From Hyphomicrobiales bacterium (GTDB lineage Bacteria; Pseudomonadota; Alphaproteobacteria; Rhizobiales; Beijerinckiaceae), in contig SEEM01000009.1 in the NCBI GenBank assembly GCA_004144595.1, forward strand, positions 1 to 64,000: DNA of 64,000 nt, read 5' to 3'. Below the pieces are notes generated by a model. It was not told the DNA's origin. It made no database searches and saw nothing but the letters and a program-made list of their open reading frames with translations. How positions within the stretch are numbered: the stretch's first letter is position 1; the number at the start of each line of letters is the position of its first letter. The position numbers were made by a program, and so were the translations under genes. Below, piece by piece: positions 20,511-53,991 of the stretch.

Positions 20511-21281
20511 TTAGAGCTCGATCATCACCGGAGCGTGGTCACTGGTGTGCTCCCAACCACGCGGTGAACGCCGAACCTCCGCGCGCTTGAGCGTTTCAGC
20601 CAGCGCAGGGCTCAGCAGGACGTGGTCGATCCTCAGTCCAGCGTCACGTTCGAACGAATTCCGCCAGTACTTCCAGAACGTGTAGATCCGCTCTCGGGGA
20701 TGGAGGTGCCTGACGGCGTCGACCCAACCCTGCTCAAGCAGGTTGGCATAAGCCTGCCTCACCTCAGGCCGAAACAGAGCGTCCTCCCTCCAGCGCTCGG
20801 GCGCATAGACATCGATATCCGTGGGCATGACATTGAAGTCACCAATGAGCGCTACCGGCACATCGAGCGAAAGAAGCTCCTCGGCGTAGCTTTGCAGCCG
20901 CTCGAACCAGCGAAGCTTGTATTCGAACTTGGGGCCAGGAGCTGGATTGCCGTTGGGGAGATAGATGCATCCGATGAGTATCCCATGCGCCGCGGCCTCG
21001 ATGTACCTGCTGTGGCCATCGTCGGGGTCTCCGGGCAGCCTGCGGCGCGTAAGGACCAGCGGGCTGCCGCGCCTTGCAAGGATGGCGACGCCGTTCCAGC
21101 TCTTCTGGCCCTGCCAAACGGCCTCATACCCCGCCTGCTGCAGTTCCCGCTCTGGAAAGCGGGAGTCGGGACATTTCAGCTCCTGTAGGCAGACTACGTC
21201 CGGCCGATCTTGCTTGAGCCAGCGCAGGAGAACCGACAGGCGACCGTTGATGCCGTTGACGTTATAAGTGGCGATCTTCAA
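20511..21281 (-). CDS. xthA: Exodeoxyribonuclease III
   Basis: A 256-residue exonuclease III/AP endonuclease of the EEP fold. Characteristic stretches are MKIATYNVNGINGRL, the metal-binding Glu in VCLQELKCPD, LIGDFNVMPTDIDV and the C-terminal RIDHVLLS and HTSDHAPV. It repairs abasic sites and 3'-blocked ends. It is the last of three minus-strand genes behind an EcfG-type promoter at 22236-22261, so it is probably induced by general stress; a second housekeeping copy elsewhere would be expected. Confidence 0.95.
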   Translation of the reverse strand: MKIATYNVNGINGRLSVLLRWLKQDRPDVVCLQELKCPDSRFPERELQQAGYEAVWQGQKSWNGVAILARRGSPLVLTRRRLPGDPDDGHSRYIEAAAHGILIGCIYLPNGNPAPGPKFEYKLRWFERLQSYAEELLSLDVPVALIGDFNVMPTDIDVYAPERWREDALFRPEVRQAYANLLEQGWVDAVRHLHPRERIYTFWKYWRNSFERDAGLRIDHVLLSPALAETLKRAEVRRSPRGWEHTSDHAPVMIEL

Positions 21282-21321
21282 TTGCGCCTGTCCTCACAAC
21301 CCGCGCTTCCGGCTAGGCTTG

Positions 21322-21966
21322 TCACAGGTGCTCCTGCAAGAATGCCTGCGTCCTCGACAGCGCGTCAGGCCAGGTCGCGAGCGAGAGCCCATGTCCCTCG
21401 CCTGGATAGATGTGGCTCTGCACATTGCCGCCATTGCCCTTGATCAGCTTCTCGATCGCGCCAGCGTTCGACACAGGAACGATACGGTCGGCGTCCCCAT
21501 GCAGAATGAGCGTAGGGGGCAATGATGCCCTCTCCAATCCGGGCGGGAGGAAGCCGAAGAAGTCGACGACGGCCTTGATCCGGCTGTCGCGAGCGGCCAG
21601 TGCCAGAGCCAATGCTCCGCCGAGAGAGAAGCCGACAACGGCGAGCCGATCCTGCCTTTCGACCTTTATGCTCTCGATCGCGTCGAGCCAGATCGGAAAC
21701 TTGGTCTTGATCTCACCATAGCGGGCTCTTCGATCACCCGTGGCCTCGAAATAGCGCGGTAGCCAGACGCTGTAGCCGGCGGCGGCGATCATGTTCGCGG
21801 CGAACTCATATCGACCGCTGTTGGTCAAACCATCCGAGCCGTAGAGCAGGATGACGCTGCGTCCAGGAATCTTCGGACCGAAGCGATCGACTGCAATGCT
21901 TGCGCGAGCCGGACCAGCAACGATTGTCGCGCCTGCGCCTGCCACAAAATGCCGTCGATCCATCAT
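21322..21966 (-). CDS. Dienelactone-hydrolase-family alpha/beta hydrolase, exported
   Basis: A 214-residue hydrolase. The N-terminus ([20 protein letters not shown]) looks like a twin-arginine or Sec signal. The catalytic set is Ser in GFSLGGALA, Asp in HGDADRIVP and His in GEGHGLS. The family includes dienelactone hydrolase and general esterases; the substrate is not evident. Its start overlaps the stop of the DUF2171 gene and it lies 40 bases before xthA, so all three probably form one stress operon. Confidence 0.85.
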
Positions 21967-22202
21967 TCAGCCGCCTCGGACCATCGCTCTTTTGCCTCAG
22001 CAGCTGGGACGATCAGCTTGATGGTGTCGCCCTCGATGCCGATGACGAGCCCCAGGTCGATATAGTGGTGGGCGCCGCCCGACTCGGGGTCATTCTTCTT
22101 GAGTTTGATGAGCTGGCCGCTGAGAGCGTCGACGGTTCCGACGTGACCTCCATCGGATCCGATCACCCGTTGGCCGTCCCTGATTTGCTCGACGAACATC
22201 AT
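21963..22202 (-). CDS. DUF2171 family protein
   Basis: A 79-residue soluble protein with a PRC-barrel-like pattern ([15 protein letters not shown], then a strand-rich segment ending [17 protein letters not shown]), which matches small DUF2171 proteins. The start has AGGAAGGAA upstream. It is first in a three-gene minus-strand operon, 34 bases downstream of an EcfG-type promoter. The function of DUF2171 is unknown; a link to stress is inferred from the promoter. Confidence 0.8.
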
Positions 22203-22235
22203 TGCTGGATTTCCTTCCTGAGCCTGTCCCGGAGC

Positions 22236-22261
22236 AACGGGGCGTCTGGTGTGGAGGTTCC
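22236..22261 (-). promoter_or_regulatory. EcfG-type (general stress sigma) promoter for DUF2171-hydrolase-xthA
   Basis: Read on the minus strand: GGAAC (22261-22257), a 17-base spacer, then CGTT (22239-22236). This matches the alphaproteobacterial EcfG/RpoE2/SigT consensus GGAAC-N16/17-cGTT. The expected transcript would start near 22230 and give a leader of roughly 30 bases before the DUF2171 ATG. Confidence 0.7.
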
Positions 22262-22509
22262 TGCCCGCGCACCGGAACCGTCTCTCGCGCGCAAGGATCC
22301 AGTGGTCAGGACAGGCGCTATAGGTACGGACGGATTTCGGTGTGGGAAGAAGGCGTCCACAAATCGAGGGACTATTCTGATCGACATACGGCAGGCGCGG
22401 ATGCAGGACGATCCCAATCGCCAGCCAAGCCCCCCATCCGCCGCACCTGTTTCAAGCAAAAAGTGCCCGTCGCGATGTCCTCGGCTGACCGAAGATCCGA
22501 GCCGATTGA

Positions 22510-22534
22510 GGAACCCCTTCGTCCAGAGCCCGTT
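22510..22534 (+). promoter_or_regulatory. EcfG-type promoter for the glgE-treS-glgB operon
   Basis: GGAAC (22510-22514), a 16-base spacer, and CGTT (22531-22534), 38 bases before the glgE ATG. Both elements match the EcfG consensus exactly. The predicted start near 22541 leaves a short leader that includes the AAGGACGGG ribosome site. Confidence 0.75.
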
Positions 22535-22572
22535 GTCCCAATGAACCCCTATGGAACTAAAGGACGGGCGCT

Positions 22573-25500
22573 ATGCAAAACGGTGCATCGATCGATACGG
22601 ATCCGCACCGTGCTCGCGACCGTTCCCCCTCCCCGAGGATCTACTATCTCCATCCATGGCTCGAAGAAGCCGGGTTATGGCCCGAGGCGGTGGATCAGGC
22701 GGCGGATCTTGGCTTCACCCATGTGCTGCTGGGCTGGCCGTTCGGCTCCGAGACCGATCTTTTCGGAACCCTGGATCTGAAATTCGCCGGCGGACTGAAC
22801 GCCGATGCGGCGATGGCCGGGCTGGCGGATGCATGCGCCGCGCGGTCGATGCAGTTCTGGATCGACCTTTCGCTCGACCGGATCGCCGCCCGCAGTGACC
22901 TCGCCGCCCAGCGGCCCGGTATGTATCGACCGGCCCCGGCGCCGTTCCTCGATCCGCGGACGGTCGCCTCGGCCGGCTCGCTGTTCGCAGCGGTCGAAAG
23001 CCAGGATTTCGTCCCGTTTTGGCAGGAAGTGCTGACAGGCTGGCAGTCCCTGGGGGTCTCCGGGGTGCGCTGCCACAACGCCTCGGCCGTTCCATTGAGC
23101 GTCTGGGATCAGATACTGGCAGCGGCGCGCGCCAACGACCCCGGCTTCCGGTCCTTCGGCTGGTTGCCCGAAGCCTCGTGGGACGAAAAGGCGCGCGCGA
23201 GCGAGGTCTTCGACTTCGTTCCGTCATCGACGGCCTGGTGGACGGGCACCGAGACGTGGGTGATCGACGAGTACAACGCAATCGCCGGCCGGGGGCGGTT
23301 GATCGGCGTTCCGGCCGATCCGTTCGCCAGCCGGGTGTCGGCGCGCTCGGCCGTTGACGGTGCGCGGGATGGGACGGTGCGCATTGCGGATGCGGCCCTG
23401 CTGGCCGACGGATGGCTCCTGCCCATGGGCTACGAATACGGCATGGATGCTCCGTTCGCCTCGGCGAGGCGGGAGGACTACCTTGCCGCTCAGGGGCGCC
23501 CCCTGGATCTGCGATCCTCCATTCGGTCTGTCAACGACGAGGTTGAGACGCTGGATGGCGCCCAGACCGGGCTGGCTTCGATGCGGCCGTTCGTGCTGGA
23601 CGCCCGCTCCACCGTGGTTCTGCGCCAGTTCGGCCGCGACGCCGCGCATCTGGTCGAGATAAACCGACATCCCGTCGAATACGCCATGGCCCGATCGCCG
23701 CACTATGCGGCCAAGCTCGGAGCCGTCTCCCCCGGCGATCGAGAGGGCGCGCCTATACCTCCCGCATGCGGCCGCGTCTTTCTTTTGATCCCCGGCCAGA
23801 TGGTTCGAAGCGAGGGTCCCGTTCGCATTCCTGATCGAGACAACCTCGTCTCGGCGCGCATCGCGATCGAGAACGTGAGCCCGGCCGCGGATGACGGCCG
23901 GTTTCCGGTGAAGCGCAGCGCCGGCGACCGGGTGGTCGTCTCCGCCGACGTTTTCGGCGACGGGCATGACGTCATCGAAGTGGAGCTTCTCTGGCGACCC
24001 CCGGGTGCAACCGAATGGCACCGGCACCCCATGCGGCACCTGTCGAACGATCGTTGGGAAGGCGTTTTCACGATCCATGGCATCGGCCGTCACAGCTTCG
24101 CGATCGAGGCTTGGTGGAGCGAGTTCGGAACGTTCCGGCGAGACTTCGCCAGAAAGCGCGATGCGGGCCTGGACCTCACGCTGGAGGTCCAGGAAGGCCG
24201 GCTTCTGCTCGAAAGCTTCGCTCAGTCGGCCGACGCCGAAGCGCGGCTGGTGATTGAGAAACTTCTTGGCCAATTGAGCGCCGACCAGGACGAATGCGCT
24301 GAGGTCCTGCAGTCGGAACCGTTGGCAGCGGCGATGGCTGCGGCGGATCGCAGGCCCCACGCGGTGGGTCGCGACCGGATCTACGAGATCGAAGCGGATC
24401 GGGAAGGTGCGGCCTTCGCGAGCTGGTACGAACTGTTCCCCCGCTCGGTCACCGACAGCCCCGACCGCCACGGCACGTTTCAGGATGTCATCGGTCGGCT
24501 GCCGGCCATTCGGGAGATGGGGTTCGACGTCCTCTATTTCCCTCCGATCCACCCTATCGGGCGGACGAACCGGAAAGGCCGCAACAACACCCTGACGCCG
24601 GGACCGGACGATCCGGGCAGTCCTTATGCGATCGGCTCTGCCGAAGGCGGTCACGACGCGGTTCATCCGCAACTGGGAACGCTCGACGATTTCGAGCGGC
24701 TCGTCGACGAAGCCGGCCGTCACGGCATCGAGATTGCGCTGGACTTCGCCATCCAGTGCTCGCCCGACCATCCCTGGCTGCGAGAACATCCGGACTGGTT
24801 CAGCTGGCGGCCGGACGGATCGATGCGCTATGCCGAAAATCCGCCGAAGAAGTACCAGGACATCGTCAATGTCGACTTCTACGCGCCGGGCGCGATCCCC
24901 GATCTGTGGTTCGCCCTGCGGGACGCCGTTCAGTTCTGGGTTGACCGGGGCGTGCGCATCTTCCGCGTCGACAACCCGCATACCAAGCCTTTCCCTTTCT
25001 GGGAGTGGCTGATCGCCGATATCCGCTCCCGCGACCCGCGCGTCCTGTTCCTTGCCGAGGCCTTCACCCGCCCCAAGATCATGTATCGGCTCGGCAAGGT
25101 CGGTTTCTCGCAGTCCTATACGTACTTTACCTGGCGCAACACGAAGGCCGAGCTGACCGAATACCTCACCGAGCTCAACGAGGCGCCGGCGCGAGACGTC
25201 TACCGCCCGCATTTCTTCGTCAACACCCCGGACATCAACCCCGTCTTCCTGCAGAATTCGGGGCGTCCGGGCTTCCTGATCCGCGCCGCGCTCGCGGCCA
25301 CGCTGTCTGGGCTTTGGGGGGTCTATTCCGGCTTCGAACTCTGCGAGGCGGAGCCGGTCCCCGGCAAGGAAGAATACCTCGACAGCGAGAAGTACGAGAT
25401 CAGGCCGCGCGATTGGCTGAGCACCGGAAACATCGTCGCGGAGATCACCGCGCTGAACCGCATCCGGCGCAACAATCCCGCCCTCCAGAGTCATCTCGGC

Positions 25501-25797
25501 CTCACCTTCTACAGCGCGTCCAACGAGAACGTTCTCTATTTCGGCAAGCGCGAGCCGCAAGCCGACGAGATCGTCCTGGTGGCGGTCAACCTCGATCCCC
25601 ATGCCGCGCATTCCGCCGCGATCGAGGTACCGCTCTGGGAATTGGGCCTGCCGGATCACGGTTCGGTATCGGTCCTGGATTTGATGCAGGGACATCGCTT
25701 CACCTGGCACGGCAAGATGCAGGATATCCGTCTGGATCCGCACGCCCTGCCCTTCGCGATCTGGCGCATCGCTGCGCTCAAGGGAGATAACCGTTGA
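22573..25797 (+). CDS. glgE: Alpha-1,4-glucan:maltose-1-phosphate maltosyltransferase, long form
   Basis: A 1074-residue GH13_3 protein. GlgE itself starts about residue 430 (DUF3416-type beta domain [20 protein letters not shown], then the barrel at [12 protein letters not shown]). The catalytic nucleophile is Asp800 in [10 protein letters not shown] and the acid/base Glu829 in FLAEAFTRP. GlgE adds maltose from maltose-1-phosphate to alpha-1,4-glucan. Residues 15-330 form an extra amylase-like region ([23 protein letters not shown]) lacking obvious catalytic residues. The downstream TreS-maltokinase makes the substrate, and glgB branches the product. Confidence 0.95.
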
Positions 25798-28700
25798 ACG
25801 CGCCCCTGCCCTCGAATCCGAATTCCGATAGCCGCGTCGCCGCAGAGTCCCATGAGGCCGACCCTCAGTGGTACAAGGATGCGATCATCTACCAGCTGCA
25901 CGTGAAGTCGTTCTTCGACGCCAATGGCGACGGGATCGGCGACTTCCCCGGCCTGCTGTCCAAACTGGATTACATCGTCAGCCTGGGCGTCAACGTCCTG
26001 TGGCTGCTCCCGTTTTACCCATCGCCGCGCCTCGACGACGGCTACGACATCTCGGCCTACAAGGCCGTCCACCCCGACTACGGCACGGTTGCGGACGTCA
26101 AGCGCTTCATCAGGGCGGCCCATGAGCGCGGCTTGAGGGTCGTTACCGAGCTCGTCATCAACCACACCTCGGACCAGCACCCCTGGTTCCAGCGGGCGCG
26201 GCTGGCAAAGCCTGGCTCAGCTCATCGCGATTTCTACGTCTGGTCGGACAATGACCAGCTCTACTCCGGCACCCGCATCATCTTCCTCGACACCGAACGC
26301 TCGAACTGGACCTGGGACGCCACTGCCGGTGCCTATTATTGGCATCGGTTCTACTCCCATCAGCCGGATCTCAACTTCGACAATCCAGCCGTGCTGAAGG
26401 CGGTGCTCGGCGTGATGCGCTTCTGGCTCGACATGGGCGTCGATGGTCTTCGGCTCGACGCCATACCCTATCTGATCGAGCGCGACGGCACGTCGAACGA
26501 GAACCTTCCCGAGACCCACGAAGTCCTCAAGAAGATCCGCGCCGAGCTCGATCGAACCTATCCGGACCGAATGCTGCTGGCCGAAGCCAACATGTGGCCC
26601 GAGGACACCCAGGCCTATTTCGGCGACGGCGACGAATGCCACATGGCGTTTCACTTCCCGCTGATGCCACGGATGTATATGGCGATCGCGCAGGAGGACC
26701 GCTTCCCGATCACCGACATCATGCGCCAGACCCCGGACATCCCCGAGGCCTGCCAATGGGCGATTTTCCTGCGCAATCACGACGAGCTGACGCTCGAAAT
26801 GGTGACGGACAAGGAGCGCGACTACCTCTGGAACACCTACGCCACCGACCGGCGCGCCCGGATCAACCTCGGCATCCGCCGTCGGCTCGCGCCCCTGCTG
26901 GAGCGTGACCGTCGTCGCATCGAGCTGATGAACAGCCTGCTGCTCTCGATGCCCGGCACGCCGGTCATCTACTACGGCGACGAGCTCGGCATGGGTGACA
27001 ACATCTTCCTGGGCGACCGCGACGGCGTGCGCACACCGATGCAGTGGTCACCCGATCGCAATGGCGGCTTCTCCAAGGCCGATCCCGCGAGCCTCGTGCT
27101 GCCTCCGATCATGGACGCGCTTTACGGCTTCGACGCCGTAAACGTGGAGGCTCAGACCCGCGACGTCCATTCTCTCCTGAACTGGACCCGGCGAATCCTG
27201 GCCGTGCGCAAGGAACACAAGGCCTTCGGACGGGGAACCCTGCGTTTCCTCTACCCGAAGAACCGCAAGGCCTTCGCCTACCTGCGCGAACACGATGGCG
27301 AGACGATCCTGTGCGTCGCAAACCTCTCGCGCTCGGCGCAGGCCTTCGAGCTCGATCTCGCCGAATTCGCCGGTCACTTCCCCGTCGAAATGCTGGGCAA
27401 TTCGGTTTTTCCCGCCATCGGCCAGCTGACGTATCTGCTCTCCCTGCCGCCCTACGGCTTCTACTGGTTCGTGCTGGCGAAGGACGCGCAGGCTCCGTCC
27501 TGGCACACGCAGGCGCCTGAACCGATGCCGGATTATCTCACCTTCGTCTTGCGGGGCGGCCCCGACGAGATGATCACCCCGCAGTACCGCCGGGAGTTCG
27601 AGACGAACATCCTGCCTCCCTATCTGGTGAAGCGCCGCTGGTTCGCGGCCAAGGACCAGAAGCTGGAGAGCGCCTCCGTCGCCTATACGGCACGGATCGG
27701 AGCGGGCCGCGAAATCGCCCTCGTCGCGATCGAGGCGGTGCACGGCAAGGGCACGGAGAGATACCTGCTTCCGATCGGCGTTGGCTGGGACGACGAGGTC
27801 ACGGCCGCCTTGCCGCAGCAACTCGCCCTGGCGCGGGTCCGCCGTGGCCGCCGCACCGGCTTCCTGACGGACGCCTTCACTCTCCCGAGCTTCATCCAGG
27901 AGCTGCTCTCGCTCCTGAAGGCGGGCGCATCGGTCAAGACGAGTGCGGGCGAGATCGTCTTCCGGCCCACTGCGGCCTTCGACGATGTCACCTTGTCGCC
28001 CGAGGATCCGATCCGCTGGCTTTCCGCCGAGCAGTCGAACTCCTCCGTGATCGTCGATCACAAGCTCATGCTGAAGCTGTTTCGTCGTTTGGCGCCGGGA
28101 CGGCATCCCGAGGCGGAGATGTCGCGCGTATTGACCGAGCGCGGCTTCGCGAACGCCCCGACGCTGCTCGGGGAGGTCGTGCATCGCCCCTCGGACGGCG
28201 AAGAGGAGTCGATGATCGTCGTTCAGGCCTTCATTCCCGGTGAAGGCGATGCGTGGGAATGGACGGCGTCGCTGATCCATCGCGTCCTGGACGAGATGGC
28301 CCGGCAGGATGCCGATCTTGGGGAGCTTCTGGCCCCTTACGAGACCTTCGCGCGGACCTTGGGGCAACGCCTGGGCGAGATGCACGTCGTGCTGGCGCAA
28401 CCGAGCGACGACGAGGCCTTCCAGCCGGTCAGTGCAGGTGAAGATCAGGTGGGGCGCTGGCTGGACCGCATTCGTGGCCGCGTGGAAGCGGCTTGCGACA
28501 ATCTTGCGCTTCGTCGCGATGAATTGCCGGAGGCGGAGCGTGAGCTTGCCGACCTGGTTTCGGGCGCCCGCAAGGAGCTGATCAGCTTCGTCGAAAACGC
28601 CTGTAAGGCCGGCAGGGAGGCGCCGCTTCATCGTGTGCATGGCGACTTCCATCTCGGGCAAGTTCTCGTCGCGAGCGGCGACGTTTTCATCATCGACTTC

Positions 28701-29120
28701 GAGGGCGAGCCGGCGCAGCCGCTCGCCGAGCGGCGGGCGAAGGACAGCGGGTGGCGGGACGTCGCCGGAATCCTGCGTTCGTTGGACTACGCGTTGGCCG
28801 CCGGGCGTCGTCAGGGCGCTGCCGCGGGACAGGAAGAGCGCTACGATGAAATGTCTGCCGCCTTCCGCGACTCGATACCTGCCGCGCTGCTGGAGGGCTA
28901 TCGCGAGGCGATTGCCAACAGCGCGCTATCTGGCTGGGAGAGCGAGCTGCTCGATCTCTTCATGATCGAAAAGGCTGCTTACGAGATCAATTACGAGGCC
29001 GGCAACCGGCCCGCCTGGCTGGCCGTCCCGCTTGCGGGGATGGCTGCTCTCGTCGAACGGGTGCGTGCGCACCGGACTTCGAGGCCTGAGGCGAAACCGA
29101 CGGGAAAACAGGATGATTGA
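25794..29120 (+). CDS. treS: Trehalose synthase - maltokinase fusion
   Basis: An 1108-residue fusion. Residues about 20-560 are TreS (GH13_16): [15 protein letters not shown], nucleophile Asp222 (GLRLDAIPY), acid/base Glu264 ([12 protein letters not shown]), Asp330 ([11 protein letters not shown]). It interconverts trehalose and maltose. Residues about 590-1100 are maltokinase, with the kinase-like [14 protein letters not shown] and [10 protein letters not shown] motifs; it phosphorylates maltose to maltose-1-phosphate for GlgE. The TTG start overlaps the glgE stop (TTGA) and follows AAGGGAG. Fusion of the two enzymes is common in proteobacteria and keeps the intermediate local. Confidence 0.95.
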
Positions 29121-31299
29121 AGCATCGGTCGATCGCGTCCCGCCCCTCGACGGCGCGACCGCGACGGCGCTTGAAACCGGGCGTCTCAAGGATCCGTTCG
29201 CGATCCTGGGCCCCCATCAAGGCGCCCGAGGCCGCTTTCTACGGGTCTTCGCCCCGGGTGCGCAAGGCGTCGCCGCCGAGGGGGACGAGGTCACTGTCCA
29301 GCTGCGCGCGCTAGAGCCGGCTGGCCTGTTCGCCGGCGATATCGAGGAAGGTCCCTACCGCCTCAGGATCACATGGCCGGGTGGCGAGCAGGTCACGGAG
29401 GATCCCTACGGCTTTGGTCCCATCCTCGGCGACGTCGATCTGCATCTCATCGGGGAAGGCCGCCATTTTGAATTGACGCGCGCGCTCGGCGCCAATCTCG
29501 ACGAGCGCGACGGCGTGCCCGGCGTTCGCTTCGCCGTCTGGGCGCCCAACGCGAACCGCGTTTCGGTGGTCGGGAACTTCAACGCCTGGGACGGCCGCCG
29601 GCACATGATGCGGCGGCGCGGCGAGAGCGGAGTTTGGGAACTCTTCGTGCCCCGGCTCACCCATGGCGAGCTTTATAAATACGAGATCGTCGACCCGGCC
29701 GGACAGTTGCTGCCGCAGAAGGCGGACCCGGTCGCTCGCGCGGCCGAATTGCCGCCCGGCACGGCGTCGATCGTCCCACGCGACGCCTCGCATGTCTGGA
29801 ACGACGGCGACTGGATGGCAAGGCGCGGCGAGCGACAGAGCGCGTCGTCGCCCATTTCGATCTACGAGCTTCATGCCGGCTCGTGGGTCCGCGCCGCAGA
29901 TGGCGAAAGCCTCGACTGGCGAGGCCTGGCGGATCGGCTGGTGCCCTATGCCAAAGCGCTCGGCTTCACGCATGTGGAACTCCTTCCCGTCGCCGAACAT
30001 CCCTTCGCAGGCTCCTGGGGCTACCAGCCGCTGGGACAGTTCGCACCGACGCGACGCTTCGGCGAACCCGAGGATTTCGCGATCTTCGTCGATGCCTGCC
30101 ACGCCGAAGGGATCGGCGTGATCGTCGACTGGGTCCCCGCGCATTTCCCCTCGGACGCGCACGGCCTCGCGCGCTTCGACGGTACCGCGCTTTACGAGCA
30201 CGAGGATCCGCGCGAGGGTTTCCACAAGGACTGGAACACGCTGATCTATAATTTCGGCCGTCGCGAGGTCGCAAATTTCCTGATCGCGAGTGCCGTGTAC
30301 TGGCTCGAACATTTCCATGTCGATGGTCTGCGCGTCGATGCGGTCGCTTCCATGCTATACCGCGACTATAGCCGCCAGCCCGGGGAGTGGATCCCGAACA
30401 GATACGGTGGCCGGGAGAACCTCGAGGCGGTCGATTTCCTGCGCCATCTCAACGCGGTGATTGCGGAGCGCCAACCGGGAGTGATCGTGATCGCCGAAGA
30501 ATCGACCGCCTGGCCGGGTGTGACGCGCCCGATCTCCGAAGGCGGTCTCGGCTTCGCGTTCAAGTGGAACATGGGCTGGATGCACGATACGCTCCACTAC
30601 CTCGAGCGCGACCCGATCCATCGGCGTCATCACCATCACGAGATGACCTTCGGTCTCGTCTATGCCTTTTCCGAGCGTTTCATGCTGCCCCTCTCCCATG
30701 ACGAGGTCGTCCACGGGAAGGGCTCGCTGCTGGGCAAGATGCCCGGCGACGACTGGCAGAAATTCGCCGGGCTGCGCGCCTATCTCGCCTTCATGTGGAC
30801 GCATCCCGGCAAGAAGCTTCTGTTCATGGGCGGTGAAATCGCGCAGCGCCGGGAATGGAACCACGACGGCGAAATCGATTGGGACCTTCTGAACGATCCG
30901 CGCCACCGCGGCGTTCAGAACCTGATCCGCGACCTCAACCGAATCTATCGGGAGCGTCAGGCACTGCACGCGACGGACGCGGAGCCGGCTGGCTTCCGAT
31001 GGGTGATCGGGGATGATTCTGAGAACAGCGTCTACGCATTCATTCGCAGCGCGCCAGACAGCCCGTCGGTCCTTGTCGCGGTCAACATGACGCCCTCGCC
31101 CCGCCGGCATTATCGCATCGGGGTACCACATGGCGGACATTGGCGGGAGCTGCTCAACAGCGACGCCGGCGAATACGGCGGTTCCGGCCTCGGCAACGGC
31201 GGCGGCGTTCACGCGCAGGACGTCCCATCAGGCGGCGAGGCGACGTCGGTGGAACTCATCCTGCCGCCGCTGTCCGTGCTGATCCTGATTCACGACTAG
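29113..31299 (+). CDS. glgB: 1,4-alpha-glucan branching enzyme
   Basis: A 728-residue GH13_9 enzyme, full length for the family. The order is an N1 beta domain, a CBM48 ([21 protein letters not shown]), the barrel with nucleophile Asp409 ([15 protein letters not shown]) and acid/base Glu462 ([14 protein letters not shown]), [20 protein letters not shown], and an all-beta C-terminus. The ATG at 29113 overlaps the treS stop by eight bases; an in-frame ATG at 29032 would lie inside treS coding sequence. It introduces alpha-1,6 branches into the glucan made by GlgE. Confidence 0.96.
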
Positions 31300-31393: not shown

Positions 31394-33193
31394 TCATGAC
31401 AGCCCCGCCAGCATGACCCCGGTCCAGGGCGCCAGCCCGATGGCGCCCTGATGATGTTTCTTTTCCTCCGGCCAGATCGGATGCTCGCCCTGCGCGCCGT
31501 CGTGTTCGAAGGTCTCGCTCCCGAAATTGGCGATGAAGCGCAGACTGCCGCCGGCGAAACGCCAATTCACCTCCAGCACATCCGGTGCCGGCCTCGACCA
31601 TCGCGCGCCTTCGAAAGCACTTTTCGTCACCGGCACAACCTTTTCGCTGCGGATGCGCAGAAGTTGCTGGGTTTCCGCCAGCAGGTCGCTGTGGGGCGGG
31701 CTGGTGGCCTCGCTCCAATCGAGCGATGAAGTCGAAAAGGTCCCGAATGCCGTCGGGTCAGGAATGCGCTCCTGCGCCGCCTCGTCCTTGAAATGGCCGA
31801 AGCTTCCGAATTCGCGCCTGCGCCCCTCTCGGACGGCCTTGGAAAGCTCCGCATCCGGAAAATCCACGAAGTACTGAAAGGGAGCGCTCGCGCCCCACTC
31901 CTCGCCCATGAAGAGGAGCGGGATCTGTGGGCTGAGCAGCAGACCGGCACGGGCCAACGCCAGCCTGTTCGGCTCTGCGAGATGCCCCAATCGCTCTCCG
32001 AAAGCCCGGTTTCCGATCTGGTCGTGGTTCTGGAGAAACGCGACAAAGGCCGATGGCGGAAGATGGGCGGACGGCTCGCCGCGAGGCTTGCCTTCATGGG
32101 CCGAGAGTTCGCCCTGATAGGCGAAGCCTTCCGCGAGGCAACGCCCCAAATGGGCAATCGGATCGGCATAATCGGCGTAGTAGCCGTCGCCTTCTTCTGT
32201 CAGCAGGCGATGCCATGCGTGATGGAGGTCGTCCGCCCACTGCGCCGTATGCAGGCTTGGCGCGCCGCTGTTCCGTTCGAGCCAGCGAGCCGCATTCTCG
32301 GCGTTCTCCAGGACAAGATGGATCTGGCGCCCGCCTGAGGCGGATCTGATCCTCTCCGCCAGCTCGGCGATGAAATGCCGGCTGCTGTCGTCCGCGATGG
32401 CATGCACCGCATCGAAGCGTAAGCCGTCGAAATGGAATTCCTCCAGCCAGTAGAGCGCGTTGTGGATGAAGAAGTCGCGCACGGTCTCTGCGCCGACCCC
32501 GTCATAGTTGATCCCTGCTCCCCAAAGCGTCTGGTGCCTGTCCGTGAAAAACGTGCCGGAATAGGCTGGCAGGTAATTTCCCGACGGCCCGAAATGATTG
32601 TAGACGACGTCGAGGATCATCATCAGGCCCAAACCATGAGCCCGGTCCACCAGCGCCTTGAGATCGTCCGGCGTTCCGTAGGCGTGATCCGGTGCGTAAT
32701 GCAGCACCCCGTCGTAACCCCAATTGCGCTGGCCTGGAAAATCGGCGAGCGGCATCAACTCGATCGCGGTGAAGCCCACGTCGCGCAGACGTTCGAGTTT
32801 GTCAGCGAACGCGGCGAAGGTTCCTTCGGGCGTCGCGGTACCGATGTGAGCCTCGTAGATCACCGCCTCCTCCCAGGCGCGTCCCTTCCACTCCCCGTCC
32901 GACCAGCTGTAGATATTCGGATCGACGACCAGGCTTGGTCCCTCGACGTCTTCGGGTTGGAAACGGGAGGCCGGGTCAGGAACCAGGAGATCGTCTCGCA
33001 CCCGAAATCGATACAGCTGGCCTGCCCCTGCATCCCTTAGGACGTAGCGATGCCATCCTCCTTCGGCTTCCATGTCGAACTCGCCCTGCGGAGTCCAAAG
33101 GCGAACCTGGGAGACCGAAGGCGCCCAGAAACGAAACTCGACCCCGTCTGCAAGAATGCGGCTGCCAAACGGCATTTCGTGAGAGCATTGCAT
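31394..33193 (-). CDS. treZ: Malto-oligosyltrehalose trehalohydrolase
   Basis: A 599-residue GH13_10 enzyme. An N-terminal E-set domain (GVEFRFWAPSVSQVRLWTP) precedes the barrel with EAVIYEAHIGTATPEGTF, nucleophile region HFDGLRFDAVHAI and acid/base region HLVLENAENAARWL. TreZ releases trehalose from maltooligosyl-trehalose made by TreY; treY is not in the window. The ATG at 33193 has AGGA upstream. It converges on glgB with a 94-base gap. With the TreS pathway next door, trehalose and glucan pools are probably linked. Confidence 0.93.
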   Translation of the reverse strand: MQCSHEMPFGSRILADGVEFRFWAPSVSQVRLWTPQGEFDMEAEGGWHRYVLRDAGAGQLYRFRVRDDLLVPDPASRFQPEDVEGPSLVVDPNIYSWSDGEWKGRAWEEAVIYEAHIGTATPEGTFAAFADKLERLRDVGFTAIELMPLADFPGQRNWGYDGVLHYAPDHAYGTPDDLKALVDRAHGLGLMMILDVVYNHFGPSGNYLPAYSGTFFTDRHQTLWGAGINYDGVGAETVRDFFIHNALYWLEEFHFDGLRFDAVHAIADDSSRHFIAELAERIRSASGGRQIHLVLENAENAARWLERNSGAPSLHTAQWADDLHHAWHRLLTEEGDGYYADYADPIAHLGRCLAEGFAYQGELSAHEGKPRGEPSAHLPPSAFVAFLQNHDQIGNRAFGERLGHLAEPNRLALARAGLLLSPQIPLLFMGEEWGASAPFQYFVDFPDAELSKAVREGRRREFGSFGHFKDEAAQERIPDPTAFGTFSTSSLDWSEATSPPHSDLLAETQQLLRIRSEKVVPVTKSAFEGARWSRPAPDVLEVNWRFAGGSLRFIANFGSETFEHDGAQGEHPIWPEEKKHHQGAIGLAPWTGVMLAGLS

Positions 33194-51636: not shown

Positions 51637-53991
51637 TCAGGCCTTCTTGTGAATGGCCTTCCAGATCGCCTGCGGCGTCGCCGGCATGTCGATATGGCGC
51701 ACGCCATGCGGCGAAAGGGCATCGACGATCGCGTTCATCACGGAAGGCAACGAGCCGGCGCAACCGGCCTCGCCGCAACCCTTGGCCCCGACCGGATTGG
51801 TTCGTGTCGGCACACCCTCGCTGATGAAGCTGAAGAATGGCACATCCGCGGCACGTGGCATGGCATAGTCCATGTAGGAGCCGGTCCTGAGCTGGCCATC
51901 CTCGTCATAGGAGGTCATCTCGCAGATCGCCTGGCCGATACCCTGCACGACGCCGCCATGGAGCTGGCCCTCGACGATCATCGGGTTCACCAGCACCCCG
52001 AAATCATTGACCATGACATAGCCCACGATCTCGACATGGCCGGTATCGGGATCGATCTCGACCTCGGCGATATGGCAGCCATTGGGATAGGCCGAGGGCG
52101 CCGCCTTGAAGACGTGATCGACATCGAGCGTCGTGGGAAGGTCCTCCGGCAGGGAGGCGCCCGCTTGCAGCTTCCGGGCGAGTTCCATGATGTCGATCGA
52201 GCGGTCGGTTCCGGCGATGCCGAAGCGGCCATCGACGAACTCGATATCTGCGACGGCCGCCTCCAGCAAATGTGCGCTCAGCAGCTTGCCCTTCTCGATG
52301 ACGCGCTCGCTCGCCTCGATGATCGCCGAGCCACTCGCCATGATCGATTTCGAACCGCCGGTGCCGCCGCCCGCGATGAGGCGGTCGCTGTCGCCCTGCA
52401 CGAGCCGGATCTTGTCGAAAGGCACGCCGAGATGGCTGGTCAGGACCTGGGCGAAAGGCGTCCAGTGACCCTGCCCGTAATCGAGCGTGCCGGTGACGAT
52501 GGTCACCGTTCCGTCCGGCTCGAAATGGATGCCGCCCATCTCGCTGGTCGGAGGTGCCGTGACTTCGAGATAGCAGCCGATGCCGCGGCCGCGCAGCTTG
52601 CCGGCCTTCCGGCTGGCGCGCTCGCGCGCCCGGTAGCCCTTCCAGTCGGCAGCCTCCAGCGCGCGGGCGAAAAGCGCGGGGAAATCGCCGCTGTCATAGA
52701 CCGTCCCGATCGGGGTCTTCCACGGCAGTTGCGCGGGCCCAATCAGGTTGCGACGGCGAATGACGGCGCGGTCGATCCCCATCTCGCGGGCAGCGGTGTC
52801 GATCAGCCGCTCCATGAAATAATTGCCCTCGGGGCGGCCCGCGCCGCGATACGCCGCGATCGGCACGGTGTTGGTGACGGCGCAGCGCGTCCGCACCTCG
52901 ACAAGCCGCGTGCGGTACATGCCGACGCTGTTCTTGCCGATGTTCAGCGTCGCCATCAGCGGGCCGGGCTGGGTGAGATAGCCGCCCATATTGCCGAAGC
53001 CGGTGAAGCGCGTCGCGAGGAAGCGCCCGCCCGCATCGAGCGCAAGCTCCGCCTCGAACACCATGTCGCGGCCGTGATGGTCGGAGACGAAGCTCTCCGA
53101 GCGCTGGTCGGCCCATTTCACCGGCTTCTTCAAGAGCCGCGCCGCGTGGAGCAGCACGACATATTCGGGGAACACCGCCGATTTCATGCCGAAGGAGCCC
53201 CCGACATGACCGGTGATCAGGTGCATCTTCTCCTGCGGAACGCCCATCGCGGCCGCCAGGTTGTTGCGCATCCCGAAGGCGCCCTGGCTCGGTGCGTGGA
53301 GCGTGTAGCGCCTGGTCTTGCGGTCGTAGGCGGCGATCGCGGCACGCGGCTCGATCGGGTTCACAATGACGCGGTTGTTGACGATCCGCATCTTGGTGAC
53401 ATGGGCCGCATCGGCAAAGGCGGCCGCGACCTTGTCGGCATCGCCGAAATGGTAATCGAGGATGAGGTTGCCTGGCACGTCGTCGAAGAGTTCGGGCGCA
53501 TCGGGCGCCAGTGCCGCCTCGGCGGTGGTGACGGCGGGCAGGACGTCGATATCGAGTGCCACCGCCTCGGCGGCATCGCGTGCCTGCTGCATTGTCCGGG
53601 CGACGACCATCGCGACGGGGTCTCCGACGAAGCGCACCTTGTCCGCCGTCAGCGCGTGGCGGACCGGCTTCCTCATCGCCGATCCGTCGCGGTTCGGCAG
53701 GTCCACCGCACATTTCAACGTACCATAGCCCTGGCCGTCGAGGTCATCGGCGGTGTAGACCGCGACGACGCCCCTCATGGACCTGGCGACTGCGGCGTCG
53801 ATGCCGCGGATGACGCCATGCGCATAGGGACTGCGGACGAAGGCTGCGTAAAGCTGGCCGTCCAGCGCGAGATCGTCGGTATAGCGCCCCTCGCCCCGCA
53901 CGAGGATCGCATCCTCCTTGCGGGGGAGCGACTGGCCGATCCCGGCCGCGCGTCCTGCCAGGCGATCAGGCTCGGAAATATGCATGTTCAT
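51637..53991 (-). CDS. Molybdenum hydroxylase large subunit (xanthine dehydrogenase/CoxL form II-like), orphan
   Basis: A 784-residue molybdopterin-cytosine-dinucleotide-type subunit. It opens GQSLPRKEDAILVRGEGRYTDD, has GGSFGMKSAVFPE, the AYRGAGR stretch that marks form II CoxL-like proteins (true CO dehydrogenase has AYRCSFR), and GAKGCGEAGC with the catalytic Glu. The start is uncertain: ATG 53991 is chosen, and frames extend to 54096. The FAD and 2Fe-2S subunits that normally accompany it are absent on both sides, so its electron acceptor must be encoded elsewhere. Confidence 0.9.
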   Translation of the reverse strand: MNMHISEPDRLAGRAAGIGQSLPRKEDAILVRGEGRYTDDLALDGQLYAAFVRSPYAHGVIRGIDAAVARSMRGVVAVYTADDLDGQGYGTLKCAVDLPNRDGSAMRKPVRHALTADKVRFVGDPVAMVVARTMQQARDAAEAVALDIDVLPAVTTAEAALAPDAPELFDDVPGNLILDYHFGDADKVAAAFADAAHVTKMRIVNNRVIVNPIEPRAAIAAYDRKTRRYTLHAPSQGAFGMRNNLAAAMGVPQEKMHLITGHVGGSFGMKSAVFPEYVVLLHAARLLKKPVKWADQRSESFVSDHHGRDMVFEAELALDAGGRFLATRFTGFGNMGGYLTQPGPLMATLNIGKNSVGMYRTRLVEVRTRCAVTNTVPIAAYRGAGRPEGNYFMERLIDTAAREMGIDRAVIRRRNLIGPAQLPWKTPIGTVYDSGDFPALFARALEAADWKGYRARERASRKAGKLRGRGIGCYLEVTAPPTSEMGGIHFEPDGTVTIVTGTLDYGQGHWTPFAQVLTSHLGVPFDKIRLVQGDSDRLIAGGGTGGSKSIMASGSAIIEASERVIEKGKLLSAHLLEAAVADIEFVDGRFGIAGTDRSIDIMELARKLQAGASLPEDLPTTLDVDHVFKAAPSAYPNGCHIAEVEIDPDTGHVEIVGYVMVNDFGVLVNPMIVEGQLHGGVVQGIGQAICEMTSYDEDGQLRTGSYMDYAMPRAADVPFFSFISEGVPTRTNPVGAKGCGEAGCAGSLPSVMNAIVDALSPHGVRHIDMPATPQAIWKAIHKKA

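Follow-up and report, generated by a model that had tools for sequence, protein, structure and literature searches.

The closest described systems are the EcfG (RpoE2, sigma-T) regulons of Alphaproteobacteria. The published EcfG consensus is GAAC-N16,17-C/GGTT in Methylobacterium (PMC4814048), and a ggAAC-N16-cgTT motif is described in PMC4167512, without glgE in the available sections of that source. In Sphingomonas melonis, EcfG-dependent genes include Ku, topoisomerase IB, general stress protein 26 and a trehalose cluster. A PRC-barrel domain gene is also among them, and its GGAAC...GGTT box lies 27 nt from the start (PMC6599016). In Bradyrhizobium diazoefficiens, treS (blr6767) is under EcfG and TreS has been proposed to degrade trehalose (PMC8092242). 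In Pseudomonas aeruginosa, TreS/Pep2 and GlgE connect trehalose with alpha-glucan, and GlgE-derived glucan confers desiccation tolerance (PMC8084333). Literature searches for EcfG together with GlgE (as whole words), and for the general stress response together with Alphaproteobacteria and maltosyltransferase, returned nothing. Neither glg genes nor the exonuclease terms sought appear in the available sections of PMC3616915 and PMC6180224, and exonuclease III was not found in the excerpts of the EcfG-regulon literature matches listed.

The 64,000-nt stretch of DNA analyzed here (the window) contains a 370-nt spacer between a DUF2171 gene and glgE (22203-22572) that carries two exact GGAAC-N16/17-CGTT sequences pointing outward. 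The features of this locus are as follows.

20511..21281, minus strand: exodeoxyribonuclease III paralogue (xthA); TIGR00195 and TIGR00633 above cut-off
21322..21966, minus strand: alpha/beta hydrolase of the dienelactone-hydrolase family; PF01738 above cut-off; 4-nt overlap with the end of the DUF2171 gene
21963..22202, minus strand: DUF2171 protein of 79 aa, putatively of a PRC-barrel-like fold; PF09939, 71.4 bits against a cut-off of 25
22236..22261, minus strand: EcfG-type promoter box GGAAC-N17-CGTT, exact match, ahead of DUF2171-hydrolase-xthA
22343..22568, no strand: stretch containing the junction between the operons, from the limits of blastn homology to relatives G075 and G012
22510..22534, plus strand: EcfG-type promoter box GGAAC-N16-CGTT, exact match, ahead of glgE-treS/mak-glgB
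22573..25797, plus strand: glgE, alpha-1,4-glucan:maltose-1-phosphate maltosyltransferase; PF11896 and PF21702 above cut-off
25794..29120, plus strand: treS-maltokinase fusion; TIGR02456 and TIGR02457 above cut-off
29113..31299, plus strand: glgB, alpha-glucan branching enzyme; TIGR01515 above cut-off
31394..33193, minus strand: treZ, converging on glgB; TIGR02402 above cut-off

The minus operon thus runs from DUF2171 through the alpha/beta hydrolase to exonuclease III, while the plus operon, in the order glgE, treS-maltokinase fusion and glgB, brings together the four functions of a GlgE-pathway operon (glgE, treS, maltokinase and glgB). The closest named records to its GlgE are from Bosea. 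A scan of the window found no EcfG box belonging to treZ; in one relative (G013), treZ lies divergent from glgE. Since the genome has three exonuclease III genes, xthA among them, any stress role for xthA would be an additional one.

The two boxes have the form that the initial annotation had described, two outward-facing sequences 30-40 bases from start codons: both elements are exact, and the minus box ends 33 nt from the DUF2171 ATG at 22202 and the plus box 38 nt from the GlgE ATG at 22573. Each combines a GGAAC -35 element, a C/GGTT -10 element and a spacing of 16-17, as in sigma-EcfG promoters, and no sigma-70-type match was found in the spacer. The number of matches in the window is by itself at chance level and proves nothing, as the two exact matches compare with a shuffle mean of 1.37 and 42 of 100 shuffles reach two. 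Relaxing the motif adds a third match in the window (53237-53262), which lies inside a gene, and leaves the two main boxes as the only ones in spacers.

A different picture emerges from the genome as a whole, an assembly of 431 contigs listed as 5.25% contaminated, in which genes were predicted with a purpose-written caller based on codon usage (it misplaced several glgE starts in relatives) and the reversed motif pattern, counted over the same genome, served as the control. The exact motif is only slightly in excess in number, with 99 matches against 83 for the reversed pattern, but 75 of the 99 lie in spacers compared with 28 of the 83 (Fisher 1.7e-8). Matches that lie both in a spacer and 10-150 nt before a start on the same strand number 51/99 against 9/83 for the control (Fisher 2.6e-9), and 29 spacer matches against 4 fall 20-60 nt before a start. 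The genome-wide placing of the exact motif is therefore not due to chance. The 24 of 99 matches that fall inside called genes weigh against the promoter reading, but the motif is not as common in genes as in spacers, and it was equal abundance that the initial annotation had named as refuting its proposal.

We scanned with Pfam all 52 genes that have a spacer box within 150 nt upstream. Candidates that look like stress genes include, among those related to DNA, two Ku genes, topoisomerase IB and a uracil-DNA glycosylase, and further DUF892, DUF883, BrkB, a lipocalin, an HWE histidine kinase and two proteins resembling pyridoxamine oxidase. A transglycosylase-associated protein, a response regulator and regulators of the Crp and MarR types are also in the set. 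Others are metabolic or have no Pfam family. At one locus of this genome (C207:81716-90919), two Ku genes that face each other are both preceded by an EcfG box, and a Crp-type regulator there also has one.

The regulators of such a response are encoded in one locus of the genome. PhyR scores 379.7 against a cut-off of 240, and NepR scores 53.5 bits against a Pfam cut-off of 25.7, although its NCBIfam score of 29.7 is below the cut-off of 100. The adjoining ECF sigma factor (247.6 against a cut-off of 219) passes models that are not named EcfG, and we call it EcfG because of its position beside nepR and phyR. Upstream of nepR, 131 nt from its called start, there is a GGAAC-N16-GGTT box. The scan that detected it accepted any base before GTT and gave no match on the strand of phyR in the interval from nepR to phyR.

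The box ahead of glgE is conserved in relatives. Within the genus, 18 of 67 genomes had a GlgE match and 14, including the window's, were full-length; G089, in which the gene is split over contigs, and the weak amylase-family matches of G006, G073, G086 and the second match of G071 were left out. In all 14 full-length cases the glgE strand carries a box no more than 200 nt from the start of the match (9 CGTT and 5 GGTT), as against 3 of 14 on the opposite strand and none for the reversed pattern. Among named glgE loci (79 of 80, L038 having been dropped for want of upstream sequence), a box occurs on the glgE strand in 26/79 and on the opposite strand in 2/79 (Fisher 3.6e-7), with one match to the reversed pattern; the other 53 loci have no box within 250 nt. 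Seven of these 26 boxed loci are Bosea-like by title or identity (L031-L036 and L039) and come partly from the same genomes as the genus set, and outside the Bosea-like loci the box is present in 19/72. One of the seven, the L034 contig, is labelled as a cyanobacterial MAG (Kaiparowitsia) and carries a Bosea-like glgE with a box; it is probably mis-binned.

The box is also conserved in the genus at DUF2171, which had 50 matches in 37 of 61 sampled genus genomes. Of 30 examined loci, 26 have a box. Among 24 close orthologues (including that of the window), a box ending in [C/G]GTT is found on the gene strand in 20, on the opposite strand in one and as the reversed pattern in one, and GGAAC-N16/17-NGTT lies at -50 to -73 in 23 of the 24 while the letters between the elements vary. 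All 6 of the more distant genus loci are boxed too, no further than 130 nt from the start of the match. At the level of the order, the box is mostly absent, with 3 of 29 loci, the window's own left out, having one within 150 nt. A stress role for DUF2171, which the initial annotation had thought likely, is thus well supported by promoter conservation in this genus and not beyond it. DUF2171 proteins, mentioned among the literature matches listed only in Acinetobacter papers, become a recurrent stress-regulon candidate in this genus, which is a new assignment. The predicted model of the protein (pLDDT 89.8) tentatively suggests a PRC-barrel-like fold; a fold search matched it with MTH1859, with archaeal PRC1/PRC2 and with a PRC-barrel protein of Rhodopseudomonas palustris. 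Searching the sequence against solved structures gave nothing of note, the two matches having E values of 0.53 and 0.71.

Because of the placing of the motif before genes across the genome, the conservation of both boxes in relatives and the presence of the regulators, the boxes behave as EcfG-type promoters, and the earlier proposal that both sites are general-stress sigma promoters is very probably right. Two other origins for the matches deserve consideration. If they were chance occurrences in GC-rich spacer DNA, a window count near the shuffle mean is what one would see; position-specific conservation at both genes largely contradicts this explanation, as does the genome-wide placing, and we consider it extremely unlikely. 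GGAAC-like -35 elements are common to many ECF factors, so that a different ECF sigma factor could in principle read the boxes, and the genome does hold five further sigma-factor matches. These are 26-35% identical, and none is a close EcfG paralogue. Against such a factor, the C/GGTT -10 element and the 16-17 spacing agree with those published for EcfG (PMC4814048, PMC3892343), and several of the other box genes belong to types already described as EcfG targets, which makes this explanation very unlikely as well.

A separate question is whether the two promoters form a single switch. The initial annotation had proposed one stress switch for both operons, and an evolved bidirectional switch coupling DNA repair with alpha-glucan synthesis would account for both boxes lying within one 370-nt spacer. 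Divergent (minus, plus) pairs of exact motifs no more than 400 nt apart are also more frequent than random placing predicts (3 in the genome against 0.2 expected), and boxed divergent neighbours are seen in relatives: in L222, glgE is divergent from a boxed DUF4142 gene followed by a boxed LigD, and in L224, DUF2171 is divergent from LigD, both boxed. The genome-wide count that had been suggested as a check on rarity thus confirms that such pairs exceed chance, yet the pair in the window is not unique, being joined by C224:5003/5035 and C320:104835/104871. One flank of the C224 pair is DUF992 and one flank of the C320 pair is pyridoxamine-oxidase-like. The relative G012 has divergent box pairs similar in sequence to those of C224 and C320, with the same spacing.

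The arrangement of the spacer and its history argue against a shared switch. A distance of 248 nt separates the -35 elements, which speaks against overlapping or shared control elements. The DUF2171 search extended to 11 of the 13 other genomes in which glgE is full-length (all but G085 and G090), and the glgE-DUF2171 pairing occurs in none of the 11: three have no DUF2171 match and eight have DUF2171 elsewhere, as in G012, where it is about 17 kb from glgE. Conversely, no glgE match was found in G075, the relative whose DUF2171 is closest (95%). Homology by blastn to the G075 DUF2171 operon covers 20977-22342 and ends there, and homology to the G012 glgE operon begins at 22569; the junction therefore lies inside the spacer, where synteny is broken, and in relatives whose two operons are separate each gene retains its own box. 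The adjacency of the two boxes thus seems to reflect a local rearrangement rather than shared control, and we regard a common switch as very unlikely. Our preferred reading, which we hold to be highly probable, is of two independent sigma-EcfG promoters placed back to back in one spacer, with the operons joined by a rearrangement in this lineage. The gene content behind DUF2171 also varies, with an alpha/beta hydrolase homologue in 10/30 loci and an exonuclease III match within 1.5 kb in only 5/30, one of them partial. In that partial case (G075), the match behind DUF2171-hydrolase spans only residues 7-102 of 256.

Under the reading of two independent promoters, stress would lead to phosphorylation of PhyR, which would take NepR off EcfG. 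EcfG-RNA polymerase would then read the minus box into DUF2171-hydrolase-xthA, with xthA presumably co-transcribed, and the plus box into glgE-treS/mak-glgB, the transcripts starting from the respective boxes. The minus output would be a stress-specific exonuclease III together with a small PRC-barrel-like protein, and the plus output would be the conversion of trehalose via maltose 1-phosphate to branched alpha-glucan. What the operons would share is the sigma factor, as dozens of genes here seemingly do, and not a joint control element; their proximity would stem from the rearrangement that brought them together in this lineage.

The earlier suggestion that stress converts trehalose to branched glucan captures half of the picture. 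A second cluster in this genome (C192:1-18000) contains glgP, two glgX, glgA, glgB, malQ and treY, with one box before glgX and another before glgB2-malQ, adjoining glgP, the further glgX, glgA and treY. Together with the treZ of the window, the C192 cluster provides for conversion of trehalose to alpha-glucan and back, so that stress may drive interconversion both ways, as a cycle, in addition to the use of trehalose.

Relatives also show additional boxes around these genes. Twenty loci around glgE or DUF2171 in 18 relatives contain 44 extra boxes compared with 9.6 expected from each genome's own density (19 against 6.4 at glgE loci and 25 against 3.2 at DUF2171 loci), or 41 once overlapping two-strand matches are merged; the reversed pattern gives 11 against 7.7. 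Box-bearing neighbour genes number 26/166 in relatives against 1/199 control genes from the window's own genome, an excess whose significance is overstated, as some of the loci are alike (L223 and L224). The 26 boxed neighbours are spread over 11 of the 20 loci; besides the genes in L222 and L224 described above, they include a boxed BrkB divergent from glgE in L217 and L218. No such island is seen around the window, as only the two main genes are boxed among 53 called in C251:1-72000, and these 72 kb hold 3 boxes against 2.2 expected. A broader proposal, which we put forward tentatively and rate at somewhat less than an even chance, is that EcfG targets of the genus lie in movable islands in which boxed operons (glgE, DUF2171, LigD, BrkB and others) have been repeatedly re-paired, with selection acting on closeness and not on a fixed pair, DUF2171 serving as a core PRC-barrel-like effector and the whole trehalose/alpha-glucan cycle being driven by EcfG.

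These results extend the predicted stress regulon of this genus by glgE and glgX, by a second glgB-malQ operon, by an exonuclease III paralogue and by the little-studied DUF2171, for which they provide a testable role. They also illustrate that promoters forming a striking divergent pair may belong to one regulon and yet be independent of each other.

Compared with described systems, the GlgE pathway of P. aeruginosa has the same link between trehalose and alpha-glucan, but in a gammaproteobacterium. For B. diazoefficiens, treS alone is named in the available text, without glgE or glgB (PMC8092242), whereas in this operon glgE is the leading gene and treS forms a fusion with maltokinase. The glgX of S. 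melonis is given as a putative indirect target (PMC6599016), while here glgX has a box. The DUF2171 model may be related in fold to the PRC-barrel domain proteins MTH1859 and archaeal PRC1/PRC2. In their box, spacing, distance to the start and regulator genes, the promoters of this locus, known here from sequence, are like those of the alphaproteobacterial EcfG regulons. The two boxes are thus well supported as members of a known regulon, ordinary in kind.
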